Source of the DNA: Prochlorococcus sp. AG-409-D09
GTDB lineage: Bacteria > Cyanobacteriota > Cyanobacteriia > PCC-6307 > Cyanobiaceae
NCBI GenBank assembly: GCA_003215935.1
Contig: QCJQ01000008.1
Span: 1 to 37,168, forward strand
Direction: 5' to 3'
Length of the DNA: 37,168 bases
The position numbers and the translations under genes were made by a program. Position 1 is the first letter of the stretch. Each line of letters starts with the position of its first letter. The notes below the pieces were generated by a model. The model did no database searches. It worked only from the letters and a program-made list of their open reading frames with translations, and was not told where the DNA came from. Of the stretch, positions 4,858 through 11,429 are shown one piece after another.

Positions 4858-5184
4858 ATGATGAATAAATATAAAGGTCCAAAAGCTTATCAACATTATT
4901 GGGAGAGTCAGGCAGAGTTTATGGATAAAGAACCATGGGCTAAAGATAAGATTGTAAAAATAGAGTTCCTCCCCAATTGCCAAGAAAAGTTGGAAGAACT
5001 TGAGTTTTCAGAGCATTCTATTGATCGAGATGAAGGACATTACATTGTTAGATTAAAAGTTCCATACAATTATTTCGATCTTGATGATTTTGAATCCAAG
5101 GTTCTTGAAATATTAGGCATTGACAGAGATTGGCTTGTTGATATTAAAATTGCTGATGCTTATTGCAAATCTATTAGATGGTGA
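4858..5184 (+). CDS. Uncharacterised soluble protein, 108 aa
   Basis: An acidic, soluble protein of about 108 aa, taken from the ATG at 4858 (a second ATG follows at 4861; a TTG at 4846 is also in frame). It is rich in aromatic and acidic residues (AYQHYWESQ, FMDKEPWAKDK, PYNYFDLDDFESK), has no membrane segment, and has two Cys. The composition and mixed alpha/beta pattern indicate a genuine folded protein. I do not recognise the family. It follows the small membrane gene at 4598-4795 by 62 bases on the same strand and may share its transcript. Confidence 0.6.
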   Translation: MMNKYKGPKAYQHYWESQAEFMDKEPWAKDKIVKIEFLPNCQEKLEELEFSEHSIDRDEGHYIVRLKVPYNYFDLDDFESKVLEILGIDRDWLVDIKIADAYCKSIRW

Positions 5185-5960: not shown

Positions 5961-6812
5961 TTAGGTTAAATGTGAATAATGCATTTGACTATGTTCCGAT
6001 TCGATGTCGTGTTTCATTTCAATTATTTTCTGTAACGCAAAATCTCTAAAATCGTTAAGTTTAGGCGCACATTCTTGAACTTGAAAATTAATAATTTTTC
6101 CAATTACTACTATAGAGGGAGATGATATTTTATTAGATTCTTTTTTATGTAAAAGATTTTTTAATGGTGCTTTTACACATCTTTGATTAACTAATGTTCC
6201 TTGATGAATAATGGCTGCGGGTGTTTCAGGGTCTAAACCACCAGCAATTAATTCATTGATAATGTAATTCAGATTATGCATGCCCATATAAATGACTATT
6301 CCATCAGTTGCGTTTCCTAGTGCACGCCAATTAACTGAAGATCCTGCTTTATCTTTGCTTTCATGGCCTGTTACGAAAGTTACTGATGACCCGGCCTCTC
6401 TATGTGTTAAAGGAATCCCTTGATATGCAGGGGCTGCAATTCCGGAAGTGATACCTGGTACGATTTCAGCCTTAATATTATGTTGAGTTAACCATCTTGC
6501 TTCTTCTGCACCCCTACCGAATAAGAAAGGATCGCCTCCTTTAAGACGTACGATACATGAGTAGTCTTTAGCGATTTCAACTAAAAATTTGTTTATTTGA
6601 TCTTGCGAAAGTGACTGATAGCCATATCTTTTCCCAACAAAAAAACATCTACAATTATTAGGTGCTAATTCAAGCAATTCTTTTGGTATTAAGGAGTCAT
6701 AAATCAATGCATCACATTTAGTGAGTAATTTGTATGCTTTTAATGTCAACAAATCTGGATCTCCGGGACCAGCTCCTACAAGATATACTTTTCCTTTATT
6801 GAATTTTTTCAT
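5961..6812 (-). CDS. cobA: Uroporphyrinogen-III C-methyltransferase
   Basis: A 283-aa SUMT/CobA-type enzyme that uses two S-adenosylmethionine to methylate uroporphyrinogen III at C2 and C7, giving precorrin-2, the branch point to siroheme and cobalamin. The Gly-rich start VGAGPGDPDLLTLKA (from about residue 11), the RLKGGDPFLFGRG loop, VPGITSGIAAPAYQGIPLTH and the later GTLVNQR are signature segments of the family. It is a single-domain protein without the CysG oxidase/chelatase part. Its ATG overlaps the stop of the upstream CbiX-like gene by 4 bases (ATGA), so the two are an operon. Placement opposite nirA suggests a role in making siroheme for nitrite reductase. Confidence 0.94.
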   Translation of the reverse strand: MKKFNKGKVYLVGAGPGDPDLLTLKAYKLLTKCDALIYDSLIPKELLELAPNNCRCFFVGKRYGYQSLSQDQINKFLVEIAKDYSCIVRLKGGDPFLFGRGAEEARWLTQHNIKAEIVPGITSGIAAPAYQGIPLTHREAGSSVTFVTGHESKDKAGSSVNWRALGNATDGIVIYMGMHNLNYIINELIAGGLDPETPAAIIHQGTLVNQRCVKAPLKNLLHKKESNKISSPSIVVIGKIINFQVQECAPKLNDFRDFALQKIIEMKHDIESEHSQMHYSHLT

Positions 6813-7696
6813 GGTAAGCAGGTTAAGTAGTGGATCAAGCTAAATTTAAAAAAATCAATTTCTAATAATGATGAAATTGAATTATCTGTTCTTAGTTCTC
6901 TAGTATTTTTATTAGGTGCTAAAGAAAAAGGAATTGGAGTGTATCTTTTATTAGATTGATTTATAAGCTTATTCCACTTTGTCCAAGGAAGAATAGGTAT
7001 ATTTAATGCTTTCTTTAAGTTTTTTAGATAATTTGATCCAATATCACTATTCAAAGGATGATGAAGTAAAATAGGATTATCTATTTGAGATTGCATATCA
7101 ACAAATAATTTCAGTATAGAAATCATATGTGGCCAAGAACCCAAAAACGGAATTAATCGCGTTGATATTCCTTGATTGCATAAACGTCTAAATATTATAG
7201 GGATATCATTCTGTACATGTTTTCCAGGTAATAATAATAATGGGACAAGCCAAATAGAAGATGAGGTTGAAGGTATATGATCTCCTTTAGTTAGAATTTC
7301 TAGATCCACATGAGAGCCTCTATAATGCTCTACTGTTTTGACTAATTCAGTTATTAAGTGATGTACTTTACCTCCTGCAGATCCATGTACAATCAAACGT
7401 AATCCTCTAGAAGGATTTGAATCTTCAATATTTGGTATCAATTGCCACGGATTTTTCCCCGAGAAAAATGTTGAAGTTAAATCGTTTTTCGTTAATGGAT
7501 TAAATCGATGAGCAGAAGAAGTGATAGCAGAAGTGTTTATAGGATTACTCGCAGGAAGAATACTTTCTCGCGAGAAGATTTCAAAAGATCTAGAGCTTAT
7601 AAGAGTACTTTTCATAGGGATCTTGCTGCTATGAATCAAGTATGGAGAATGCTCAAGCAAGGAATGATTAGAGCTGTTGGTGAGATAGGACGTCAA
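6809..7696 (-). CDS. CbiX/SirB-like chelatase family protein
   Basis: A 295-aa protein from a TTG at 7696; an ATG at 7615 would give 268 aa. The CbiX signature is present: LIVHGSAGG with the putative metal-site His at residue 104, then PLLLLPGKHVQNDIP with the second conserved His, followed by a Rossmann-like C-terminal half. Known CbiX/SirB enzymes insert Co2+ or Fe2+ into sirohydrochlorin. About 95 N-terminal residues are Ser/Asn-rich and not part of the known domain. It forms an operon with cobA (4-base overlap) and is divergent from nirA, so a ferrochelatase role in siroheme synthesis is likely. Chelatase activity is inference; the metal is unknown. Confidence 0.75.
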   Translation of the reverse strand: MTSYLTNSSNHSLLEHSPYLIHSSKIPMKSTLISSRSFEIFSRESILPASNPINTSAITSSAHRFNPLTKNDLTSTFFSGKNPWQLIPNIEDSNPSRGLRLIVHGSAGGKVHHLITELVKTVEHYRGSHVDLEILTKGDHIPSTSSSIWLVPLLLLPGKHVQNDIPIIFRRLCNQGISTRLIPFLGSWPHMISILKLFVDMQSQIDNPILLHHPLNSDIGSNYLKNLKKALNIPILPWTKWNKLINQSNKRYTPIPFSLAPNKNTRELRTDNSISSLLEIDFFKFSLIHYLTCLP

Positions 7697-7748: not shown

Positions 7749-7762
7749 GTAATTGATGTTAC
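7749..7762. promoter_or_regulatory. NtcA-type site between cbiX-like/cobA and nirA
   Basis: GTA-ATTGATGT-TAC matches the NtcA consensus GTA-N8-TAC exactly and is palindromic in its defined bases. Rightward, a -10-like TTTAAT (7786-7791) follows after 23 bases. Leftward, TATTTA (7725-7720 on the minus strand) also follows after 23 bases. Both fit the class II spacing of NtcA-activated promoters (about 20-24 bases). One site could therefore serve both nirA and the cbiX-like/cobA operon. The predicted nirA start of transcription is near 7798, leaving a leader of about 150 nt. Confidence 0.75.
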
Positions 7763-7874: not shown

Positions 7875-7918
7875 ATAAAAATATTTTATGCTCCCTATAA
7901 AAATATTTTATGCTCCCT
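7875..7918 (+). repeat. Perfect 22-bp tandem duplication in nirA leader
   Basis: Two identical 22-bp units (7875-7896 and 7897-7918) lie head to tail, 33 bases before the nirA start. Each unit contains an AT palindrome (ATAAAA-ATA-TTTTAT) and an ATG followed by CTCCCT. The ATG of copy 1 is in frame with nirA; that of copy 2 opens a short overlapping frame. Confidence 0.95.
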
Positions 7919-7954
7919 TTTTTCTTTATAAACTTTTTTTATTTGTATCAATGA
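7910..7954 (+). CDS. Possible nirA leader peptide (uORF)
   Basis: A 14-codon frame starts at the ATG in the second copy of the duplication and reads MLPFFFINFFYLYQ. Its TGA overlaps the nirA ATG as ATGA (7951-7954). The peptide is almost entirely hydrophobic/aromatic. The ATGA overlap would permit translational coupling to nirA. Translation is unproven and the AT-rich setting makes chance possible. Confidence 0.3.
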   Translation: MLPFFFINFFYLYQ

Positions 7955-9573
7955 CTACAACAAATAAGCCAATCAAATATTACTTGAAGAATAAAAAATT
8001 AAATAAGATTGAACAAAATAAGTCTATAAAAGATGGCTTAGAAGTTGGTAAAGAAATAGAACAGTTTGCACAAATTGGATGGGAAAATTTAGATAAAACT
8101 GATTTAGAATTAAGGCTCAAATGGTATGGGATGTTTTGGAGGCCAAAAACACCAGGGAAATTTATGCTGAGATTAAGAGTTCCTAATGGAATTCTTAATG
8201 CAAGTCAATTAACCGTTATAGCTTCAATAGTTGCTAGATATGGTGAAAATGGAAGTTGTGATATTACTACGAGACAAAACTTACAACTTAGAGGAATTTT
8301 AATTAATGATTTACCTGATATCTTGAATAGGTTGAAAAGTGTAAGTCTTGATACAATACAATCTGGATTTGATAATCCTAGAAATGTAACTGGTAACCCA
8401 TTAGCAGGTGTAGATCCACAAGAAATAATTGATACAAGACCTTATACCTTTAAGTTGAATCAATTTCTTACTAATGAAGGTAAAGGGAATGAAGAATTTT
8501 CTAATCTTCCAAGAAAATGGAATACTGCAGTTGCTGGATCAAGAGATAATTTCCTTCTTCACAATGATCTTGTTTTTCATCCTGTAATGAAGAATGGAAA
8601 GTTGGGTTTCAGCCTTTGGGTTGGTGGGATACTTTCTTCCGTTTTAAATGATTATGCAATTCCTTTAAATGCTTGGGTTAAAGAAGATCAGATATGCGAT
8701 ATCACTGAGGTAATTATCTCAATATGGAGAGATAATGGAGAAAGATCTGCCAGACCAAAAGGTAGATTTAGAAGTTATTTAAATAAAATAGGAATAAATA
8801 ATTTTCGCTCTTTAATAGAAGAAAAGTTTGGCAAATTGGATCAAGATCCAGGTTCGGACTTTTCACAGAAGCCAAGGACATTCTTTGGTATTCATCATCA
8901 AAAGCAAAAAGGTAAATTTTATGCAGGACTTCATATTCCTGTAGGTAGACTTTCATCAACAGATCTTCAAGATCTATCAGATATCATTAAAAATTATGGA
9001 ATGGGAGATTTACGGTTAACTGAGGATCAAAATGTCATTATTACCAACATTGATGAGAATAAATTATCTCATTTTAAAAAAGATCTGTTGCTGCAAAAAT
9101 TCCCTTTAAATCCTAATAAAATTTCAGCTGGAACGGTTTCATGTACGGGAAATACTTATTGTGGATTTGCTTTAGTAAATACAAAAGATACAGCTTTAAA
9201 AATCTCAAAGGAATTAGATAATGAAATCATTCTTCCTGAAGAAGTGAAAATACATTGGACTGGTTGTCCTAATAGCTGTGGCCAGGCTTACATGGGAGCA
9301 ATTGGATTAACTGGTAAAAAGACAAAAAATAATAAAGGAGAAACAATTGAGGCATTTGATATCTCTGTTGGAGGCCAACAAGGTGCAGTTAATAAAATTG
9401 GGAAAATAGAAAAAAAAGCTGTTCCTTCTGATGATTTAAAAGAAACATTGAAGGATCTCTTGATTAGTCGATATTCCGCTGAATTAAAACCTCAAATTAA
9501 GCCTAAAAATATTGATTTCTTTTCGCGTTTTATGAATTGGTTTAGTGAATTAGGTGAAAGTAGTAACGATTAA
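7951..9573 (+). CDS. nirA: Ferredoxin-nitrite reductase
   Basis: A 540-aa assimilatory nitrite reductase that reduces nitrite to ammonium with six electrons from ferredoxin, using siroheme and a [4Fe-4S] cluster. The cluster/siroheme Cys are all present: CTGNTYC (Cys398 and Cys404) and GCPNSCGQA (Cys439 and Cys443). Family segments TRQNLQLRG and the duplicated half-domain structure are clear. I choose the ATG at 7951; an in-frame upstream ATG at 7888 would add 21 hydrophobic residues not typical of the family. The last ~20 residues (DFFSRFMNWFSELG...) extend past the catalytic domain and recur in the small gene at 9619-9762. It is preceded by an NtcA-type site and followed by that small gene and focA. 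Confidence 0.96.
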   Translation: MTTTNKPIKYYLKNKKLNKIEQNKSIKDGLEVGKEIEQFAQIGWENLDKTDLELRLKWYGMFWRPKTPGKFMLRLRVPNGILNASQLTVIASIVARYGENGSCDITTRQNLQLRGILINDLPDILNRLKSVSLDTIQSGFDNPRNVTGNPLAGVDPQEIIDTRPYTFKLNQFLTNEGKGNEEFSNLPRKWNTAVAGSRDNFLLHNDLVFHPVMKNGKLGFSLWVGGILSSVLNDYAIPLNAWVKEDQICDITEVIISIWRDNGERSARPKGRFRSYLNKIGINNFRSLIEEKFGKLDQDPGSDFSQKPRTFFGIHHQKQKGKFYAGLHIPVGRLSSTDLQDLSDIIKNYGMGDLRLTEDQNVIITNIDENKLSHFKKDLLLQKFPLNPNKISAGTVSCTGNTYCGFALVNTKDTALKISKELDNEIILPEEVKIHWTGCPNSCGQAYMGAIGLTGKKTKNNKGETIEAFDISVGGQQGAVNKIGKIEKKAVPSDDLKETLKDLLISRYSAELKPQIKPKNIDFFSRFMNWFSELGESSND

Positions 9574-9618
9574 AAACTGCTTTCACATTTTCATTATTCA
9601 CACTTCTTAATTTAAACA

Positions 9619-9762
9619 ATGGACTCTAACAACAGAAAAAAAGATTACTTTTCTATTTTCGTTAACTGGTTTTCTTCACTTGGAAATGATAAGCCTTCCA
9701 TAAATGAAACCAATGGAGGTCAGGATTTTTTTTCTAAACTTATGAATCGCATCAGCGGTTAA
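9619..9762 (+). CDS. 47-aa protein repeating the NirA C-terminal motif
   Basis: A 47-codon gene from ATG (9619) to TAA (9760-9762), 45 bases after nirA and 30 bases before focA, on the same strand. Residues 9-22 read DYFSIFVNWFSSLG and match the NirA tail DFFSRFMNWFSELG at most positions. A second, shorter copy, DFFSKLMNRIS, occupies residues 36-46. Each motif is a short amphipathic segment with aromatic residues on one face. The linker is polar (NETNGG). I know no name for it. I infer an adaptor or membrane-contact peptide for nitrite assimilation. An alternative is a decayed duplicate of the 3' end of nirA, although the intact start, stop and two motif copies argue against decay. Confidence 0.7.
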   Translation: MDSNNRKKDYFSIFVNWFSSLGNDKPSINETNGGQDFFSKLMNRISG

Positions 9763-9792: not shown

Positions 9793-10704
9793 ATGCAATC
9801 AAACACTTCTCAGATGGATTATGTCCTTCCAAATGAATTAGTAGATGGAATGATTACGGCAGGAGGAAAGAAATCAAATGTTAGCGTAAAAAATTTATTA
9901 TTACGTGGCTTCTATTCAGGAGCGATTCTTGGGTTGGCAACCTGCCTTGCAATTACGGTAGGTATTCAGTCAGGAATGCCTTTTTTGGGATCTGTTATTT
10001 TTCCTTTTGGTTTTGCAAGCATCGTCCTTTTTGGAATGGAATTAGTTACTGGAAATTTTGCTTTGCTACCTATGGCTACGTGGGCTGGAAAAAGTACATG
10101 GCAAGCTACTTTTAGGAATTGGATGTGGGTATGGCTAGGCAATTTTTTAGGAACGGCACTTGTTGCATTTTTATTGTCTATTAGTCTTACTAGTGCGGGG
10201 ACCGTAGAACCATTAGCTGCTGCTGCTGGAGGTAAAGGTTGGGCTATTGTTGCTGCAAAAATTATTGCAATTAACAAAGCAAATGTTCTTGTTAAGTATC
10301 AATCATTAGGAAGTACAGGATTCTTTTTGGCTTTTTTACGTGGTGTCATTGCTAATTGGTTGGTTTGTTTAGGTGTGACAATGGCATTGGTTAGTAAAAG
10401 TGTGCCTGGAAAAATCCTTGCTTGTTGGCTACCAATTACTGCTTTCCAAACGATGGGCATGGAACATATTGTAGTTAATATGTTCTTACATACTGCTGGT
10501 CCTCTTTTAGGTTCTGGCGTTAGGTTTGATCAGGTATTATTGTGGAATTTTCTCCCAGTAACATTAGGCAATATTGTAGGTGGGATGGTATTTATTGGAA
10601 TGCTTTTCTATAGTACTCATAGGACTAAGATGAGTAATGTATTGCCTACTGTTCATGATGAGAAGTTAGAGAGAGAATTGGCTGCTGAATTAGGAGCACG
10701 TTAA
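9793..10704 (+). CDS. focA: Formate/nitrite (FNT) family transporter
   Basis: A 303-aa FNT-family channel/transporter of the inner membrane, expected to pass nitrite given its place after nirA. It shows six hydrophobic segments between residues about 35 and 280. The conserved pore His is His225 in GMEHIVVNMF. Gly-rich FGMELVTGNF and LGNIVGG segments correspond to the broken-helix parts of the FNT pore. The start MQSNTSQMDYVLPNELVDGM resembles the usual N-terminal amphipathic helix of the family. It lies 8 bases before the next gene, so they are likely co-transcribed in a nirA-small gene-focA-HEAT operon. Formate as substrate cannot be excluded but is less likely in this context. Confidence 0.95.
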   Translation: MQSNTSQMDYVLPNELVDGMITAGGKKSNVSVKNLLLRGFYSGAILGLATCLAITVGIQSGMPFLGSVIFPFGFASIVLFGMELVTGNFALLPMATWAGKSTWQATFRNWMWVWLGNFLGTALVAFLLSISLTSAGTVEPLAAAAGGKGWAIVAAKIIAINKANVLVKYQSLGSTGFFLAFLRGVIANWLVCLGVTMALVSKSVPGKILACWLPITAFQTMGMEHIVVNMFLHTAGPLLGSGVRFDQVLLWNFLPVTLGNIVGGMVFIGMLFYSTHRTKMSNVLPTVHDEKLERELAAELGAR

Positions 10705-10712
10705 TAATATTC

Positions 10713-11429
10713 ATGGCTATTTCTCAAGATCAAATATGGGATACGTTTAACCATAATAAACCCATATTTATTGACGCTACCTGGTTGCAAACTGTTTATT
10801 CGTTAGATCTTTCTATTGAATTACGCCACATCATTGCTGAACGACTAGGAATATTAGCTGATATAGGCTGGGAAGCGATTAAAGCTCTTTTAAAGGAGTA
10901 TGGTACTCAACCTGAATTGATACATGCTGCTGGTTTATGTCATCAAAAAGAAGCCTTTAATTTTTTATTAATGCTTTTTAGAGAACAAAGTAGCCCTGAC
11001 ATTACTATTGTCAGGGCTCTAGAATGTTGGGGGGCAATGATTCCAACTGCTGATTTAAAAAAAATTCTAAAATGTCACTCGTTAGAGTTGCGTCTGGCTG
11101 GACTTAATCTTCTTCGTTTTAAATCCCACTTACTTAAGGCATCAGAGCTACTTGAATTGGTGGAACACTTGTTAGATGATTTCCGGGATGAAGTAGTCAT
11201 ACAAGTTATAAAAATTCTTCAGCGTCGTGATGAACAAAGAATTATTAATTGCATTGGAAAAATAGCAAGTCATGGAACGGATCAAGTAGTAGAAACTGCT
11301 TTAATTGCTTTGGGATCTATAGGAACTCAACACAGCGCATTAGAGTTATATTCATTATCTAGAGAATTAGTCACAACAAGTCACAGGGAAATTGCTGAAA
11401 AGCAAATCTCACATCAATATATCGATTAA
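10713..11429 (+). CDS. HEAT-like repeat protein of the nitrite cluster
   Basis: A 238-aa, mostly helical soluble protein. Repeating helical pairs with Leu/Ala/Ile spacing (for example LELVEHLLDDFRDEVVIQVI and VVETALIALGSIGTQHSALE) indicate HEAT/PBS-lyase-type repeats in the C-terminal 150 residues. It begins 8 bases after focA, which implies a shared transcript. In other marine cyanobacteria an uncharacterised gene called nirX accompanies nirA; this could be that gene, but I cannot confirm it. HEAT repeats usually bind proteins, so an assembly or regulatory role for NirA or FocA is plausible inference. A strong hairpin is embedded in its coding sequence at 10992-11018. Confidence 0.8.
   Translation: MAISQDQIWDTFNHNKPIFIDATWLQTVYSLDLSIELRHIIAERLGILADIGWEAIKALLKEYGTQPELIHAAGLCHQKEAFNFLLMLFREQSSPDITIVRALECWGAMIPTADLKKILKCHSLELRLAGLNLLRFKSHLLKASELLELVEHLLDDFRDEVVIQVIKILQRRDEQRIINCIGKIASHGTDQVVETALIALGSIGTQHSALELYSLSRELVTTSHREIAEKQISHQYID
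10992..11018. repeat. Perfect 10-bp inverted repeat inside a gene
   Basis: AGCCCTGACA (10992-11001), a 7-nt loop, then TGTCAGGGCT (11009-11018). It is GC-richer than the surroundings and lies within the HEAT-like coding sequence. No T tract follows, so it is not a classical terminator. Confidence 0.85.

Follow-up and report, generated by a model that had tools for sequence, protein, structure and literature searches.

A conserved small protein encoded between nirA and focA/nitM in Prochlorococcus shares a motif with the NirA C-terminus and is a candidate adaptor at the nitrite channel

The 47-aa protein encoded between nirA and focA/nitM in the window (the whole 37,168-nucleotide stretch of Prochlorococcus sp. 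AG-409-D09 DNA that was analysed) belongs to a conserved picocyanobacterial family under purifying selection. Its gene tracks focA among the genomes of the window's own taxonomic family, its motif has, by comparison of the sequences, been repeatedly fused onto NirA, once as a whole domain, and a stand-alone copy is carried by cyanophage contigs. These observations point, tentatively, to a protein that may connect nitrite reductase with the nitrite channel.

The small gene and the motif it shares with NirA

The gene for ferredoxin-nitrite reductase, nirA, occupies positions 7951 to 9573 of the plus strand (540 aa from the likely start; NF007125, E 2.9e-250, together with Pfam NIR_SIR and NIR_SIR_ferr), with its stop codon at 9571-9573 and the protein C-terminus DFFSRFMNWFSELGESSND. 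The start is more probably at 7951 than at 7888, where an upstream in-frame ATG is created by a short direct repeat, AAAATATTTTATGCTCCCT, at 7875-7920 just 5' of nirA. After a spacer of 45 nt follows the small ORF at 9619-9762 on the plus strand; the original prediction had placed the small gene within 9540-9762, and its start has to be corrected from 9540 to 9619. A further 30 nt separate it from focA/nitM (9793-10704, plus strand; Pfam Form_Nir_trans, E 2.8e-62), an FNT-family nitrite transporter gene of the family characterised as NitM (PMC4390861). The plus-strand gene 3' of focA (10713-11429) encodes a HEAT-repeat-like protein (HEAT_2, E 7.5e-6, narrowly missing the curated cut-off), is found downstream in many homologous loci and is probably the nirX of the literature. 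Upstream of nirA, the putative NtcA-type box GTAATTGATGTTAC (7749-7762, plus strand) is an exact match to GTAN8TAC, of which chance matches occur too, and in a genome-wide scan the pattern was rarer than its reversed control. Genes for a uroporphyrinogen-III C-methyltransferase and a CbiX-like protein lie divergently next to nirA (5961-7696, minus strand) and probably serve siroheme synthesis for NirA.

The small ORF translates as MDSNNRKKDYFSIFVNWFSSLGNDKPSINETNGGQDFFSKLMNRISG, a protein with no Cys and one Trp that is matched by no family in the Pfam, NCBIfam and PHROGs profiles. AlphaFold2 predicts two helices (residues 3-23 and 35-46) joined by a linker, with moderate confidence (mean pLDDT 69). 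Helix 1 contains the motif DYFSIFVNWFSSLG (9643-9684, plus strand), in which S12 and W17 are near-invariant in 41 homologues, and helix 2 contains DFFSKLMNRIS (9724-9756, plus strand), in which D36, S39, M42, N43 and S46 are invariant in the same set. Each carries a D-x-F-S motif, the first of which also ends NirA, and the two halves of the protein are mutual repeats of the pattern D-x-F-S-[RK]-x-x-N-x-x-S. In the window protein alone this internal repeat is the weaker signal, its score being reached by 24 of 2000 shuffles; across 12 family members it is clear, with a mean score of 27.7 against a shuffle mean of 9.8 and a largest shuffle score of 13.0. The helix-1 copy at the end of NirA, DFFSRFMNWFSELG (9514-9555, plus strand), matches the small protein over 14 residues with a BLOSUM62 score of 60, as high as none of 5000 shuffles, and a search of the 1.2-Mb genome with the family profile picks up the NirA tail (E 8.4e-6). 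A chance resemblance between the two is ruled out by the shuffles and by the homologues. AlphaFold2 models the tail of the window NirA as a helix (523-536) that follows a low-confidence linker (residues 517-521, pLDDT below 50). The proposal that the small protein repeats the NirA C-terminal motif, with three copies in two adjacent genes, is thus borne out.

A family profile (A1) built from the 41 homologues found the small protein in 117 of the 300 genomes of the window's own taxonomic family, and when 291 genomes sampled across the class were searched, the 16 matches all fell inside that family, with none outside it. The named carriers are Prochlorococcus and Synechococcus, including SynAce01 and WH7803, whose 44-aa copy (G245, L149) is matched by the same profile; lengths in the protein family range from 40 to 51 aa. 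Codon comparison gave pN/pS values of 0.17 (36 pairs), 0.25 (6 pairs) and 0.19 (3 pairs), which rule out a non-coding spacer at 9619-9762; the unconserved or drifting frame that had been named as a ground for abandoning the idea is not what was found. A few Prochlorococcus have second copies away from nirA-focA (L078:3211-3330; L100, at G099:C9:65695-65808; L199, at G121:C21:22681-22806), that of G099 having a Pcb-like antenna gene and a flavodoxin gene in its surroundings, and in G028 there is a copy with stops.

Association with focA, fusion to NirA and viral copies

The usual gene order is nirA, small gene, focA/nitM and HEAT-repeat gene; in Cyanobium-like genomes, the small gene lies immediately 5' of focA and 1.8 kb away from nirA. 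Among the 232 nirA-positive genomes of the taxonomic family, 115 have both focA and the module, 16 have focA only, one has the module only and 100 have neither, so that the module is present in 115 of the 131 genomes with focA versus 1 of the 101 without it. The Fisher value for this co-occurrence, 8e-47, ignores kinship, and the NirA tree yields three well-supported independent module/focA contrasts and no opposite one, too few for significance. In five genera in which nirA-positive genomes show both focA states (g5, g10, g30, g48 and g56), every focA-less member is without the module. The sixth such genus (g31) contains G121, the sole module-only genome, which is 74% complete; its copy lies outside any nirA-focA locus and has one neighbouring gene in common with the second G099 copy. 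In the g9 clade, focA is kept and the module is absent.

Most Synechococcus NirA proteins stop right after the folded core and have no tail, yet the small protein is present; consequently, the tails of NirA look derived and the small protein looks like the older element, and an ancestral tail is disfavoured. Prochlorococcus NirA proteins with a small-gene neighbour mostly carry an extension of roughly 20-30 aa, which corresponds to helix 1 in g1 (that of the window), g3, g4 and g29, and to helix 2 in two g34 genomes (G155 and G168) and in G048, a genome without any remaining stand-alone copy. In g56, which appears to be the LLI clade, the whole domain is found on NirA, accompanied by zero, one or two stand-alone copies that sit in a 203-bp tandem repeat that also duplicated the focA start. 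In the LLI-type locus L006 (3079-3642), this repeat has 2.8 copies with 97% matches and spans the nirA end and the focA start, and the repeat-born stand-alone copies begin with a FocA-like N-terminus, MTQSTSQMSYVLP. The focA-less g56 genomes (G160, G184, G265, G271 and G289) encode a short NirA (about 515 aa) and are without the module; they resemble, and may be of the same type as, the published type II NirA genomes without focA, a type to which the nitrite-releasing MIT0917 belongs (PMC6370341, PMC10470740). Unrelated tails on NirA proteins without the neighbour would have spoken against a shared motif; such proteins mostly have no tail of any kind.

Two IMG/VR contigs encode a 48-aa homologue of the small protein (L177 and L178, at 5001-5147 in each), some 1.6 kb after psbA. 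Both members of this cyanophage contig pair have the surrounding 10 kb, including psbA, in common, and the 81-kb member also has DNA polymerase, primase and tail-fibre genes. A search for nirA on both contigs found the motif itself only, and the viral FocA scan matched a different contig. The family had no match in 50,697 phage records, its viral copies being confined to the two IMG/VR contigs. Since the viral copy is stand-alone, the small protein is suggested to act in trans. On other viral contigs nirA is present, in one case together with focA, and all of these contigs are without the tail or the small protein; the focA-nirA contig encodes a full NitM C-terminus. A small ORF between viral focA and tail-less viral nirA (L181:4222-4437) looks AbrB-like in sequence and was rejected as a copy of the small protein.

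A possible docking and gating adaptor

Expressed by themselves in S. elongatus, the full-length NitM proteins of MIT9313 and CC9311 are inactive; removal of the last 21 aa, an inhibitory segment, renders them active, and CC9605 NitM, which is without this C-terminal segment, is active alone; the authors postulate a mechanism that activates NitM via its C-terminus (PMC4390861). In the window, the conserved charged C-terminal 21 aa of NitM are encoded at 10639-10701 (plus strand). Across the loci compared, the segment NVLPxxHDEKLERELAAELGAR is nearly constant where the module stands alone and slightly changed where it is fused. The segment is deleted in G215 and G278, both without the module, and the NitM C-terminus is altered in G048 and in the module-free g9 clade. 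This covariation rests on few lineages.

Based on the results presented above, the reading that we tentatively prefer, at a little below an even chance, is that the 47-aa protein serves as an adaptor between NitM and NirA, with a role in docking and gating. This two-helix protein would bind the cytoplasmic side of the NitM/FocA channel, probably at the charged C-terminus that otherwise holds the channel shut, and would bring NirA to it; nitrite would then enter only where and when the reductase is available. In many Prochlorococcus, NirA would carry the motif itself, as a short tail or as the whole fused domain, and NirA and the small protein could share one docking site. This reading draws on the module counts in genomes with and without focA, on the position of the small gene directly before focA and away from nirA in Cyanobium-like genomes, and on the motif at the NirA C-terminus in several lineages. 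It also draws on the C-terminal inhibition of NitM (PMC4390861) and the absence of the module where the segment is deleted or altered, on the WH7803 ORF, which is co-transcribed with nirA and nitM and strongly induced without ammonium (PMC9430850), and on the precedent of E. coli FocA, which is controlled by the enzyme PflB (PMC5572259). As for the earlier idea of a shared docking motif that links NirA and FocA, the link gains from the focA co-occurrence, the position at focA and the NirA fusion in LLI-type genomes, and the docking itself is the step that we infer. Against the adaptor stand G053, G023 and G075, which have an intact NitM C-terminus and in which no module was found; the g9 clade; and the viral focA-nirA contig. 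In addition, the co-occurrence is phylogenetically clustered, and operon genes may be lost jointly without any contact between their products.

The chief rival, which we regard as unlikely, takes the small protein for a regulator or assembly factor of NirA only, similar to NirP1, that would bind NirA and alter its activity or stability, the fusion then being a regulator in cis. The domain fused to NirA and the place of the small gene after nirA in most genomes agree with such a role, as does the example of NirP1, a small-protein regulator of NirA in cyanobacteria that reportedly does not occur in Prochlorococcus (PMC10907346); however, about 100 focA-less genomes with nirA are without the small gene, the Cyanobium-like gene sits at focA rather than at nirA, and the predicted tail helix is held on a low-confidence linker after the folded core. 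It is distinctly improbable that the protein is an amphipathic membrane-binding module that places NirA at the membrane, close to the channel or to the electron supply of the thylakoid, with no contact to NitM: its helices are indeed rich in aromatic residues, but the invariant polar residues D36, S39, N43 and S46 suggest a specific partner surface, and lipid binding alone leaves the tie to focA unexplained. A largely functionless remnant of nirA duplication or read-through would fit a locus that duplicates easily, as the LLI-type tandem copies indicate, but is very hard to reconcile with purifying selection, the invariant residues across the family, the phage capture of the gene and the presence of the protein where NirA is tail-less.

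If the adaptor reading is carried further, the small protein would be the postulated NitM activator, the motif copy on NirA would let the channel open only with a docked reductase, and a cyanophage would manipulate gating via the small protein alone; we consider this fuller version doubtful, though a serious possibility. The small gene is a strong genomic candidate for the activating mechanism postulated when the full-length channel showed no activity in a foreign host, and this candidacy is directly testable with the published assay in NA4, a laboratory strain of S. elongatus without nitrite transport. Nitrite is scarce outside the cell and toxic inside it, and control of its entry matters in Prochlorococcus and Synechococcus. 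An activator role would bear on nitrite release by some Prochlorococcus and on phage steering of host nitrogen use. If it is true, the focA-less LLI genomes with tail-less, type II-like NirA would have lost the whole device, and this loss would bear on why such strains release nitrite.

Comparison with known systems

The small gene had been thought undescribed, which is wrong. RS12335 of WH7803, reported in 2022, is a 44-aa ORF with two predicted helices and no assigned function; its similarity to NirA of CB0101 and NATL2A was noted, and it shares a transcript with nirA and nitM and is strongly induced in the absence of ammonium (PMC9430850). It belongs to the same family as the window protein, that of small ORFs, about 44-49 aa long, located between nirA and nitM (47 aa in the window), and the window protein likewise combines two helices with similarity to some NirA C-termini. 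Co-transcription applies to WH7803; in the window, the genes alone give same-strand order and the NtcA-type box. That study concerns one strain and proposes no function, and its passages on the ORF do not mention the wider family, the tie to focA, the modular tails of NirA or the copy in viruses. The open-access literature searched yielded no previous account of the FocA link, the modular fusions or the viral copy, nor a paper linking the small protein to NitM control.

NirP1 is likewise a small cyanobacterial protein tied to NirA and nitrite handling; it is usually 76-86 aa long and has an absolutely conserved single Cys and three Trp (PMC10907346). In contrast, the present family is shorter and its gene lies beside nitM, and identity with NirP1 was rejected because the defining Cys and three Trp are absent. 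The proposed role has a parallel in E. coli, where transport by the FNT channel FocA is controlled by interaction with a metabolising enzyme, PflB or TdcE; there, however, the N-terminal helix of FocA is bound directly by the enzyme and no small adaptor takes part (PMC5572259). In E. coli FocA, the charged C-terminus of NitM has no conserved counterpart. In being phage-borne, the small protein resembles CP12 and NblA, small host regulators that are carried by cyanophages.
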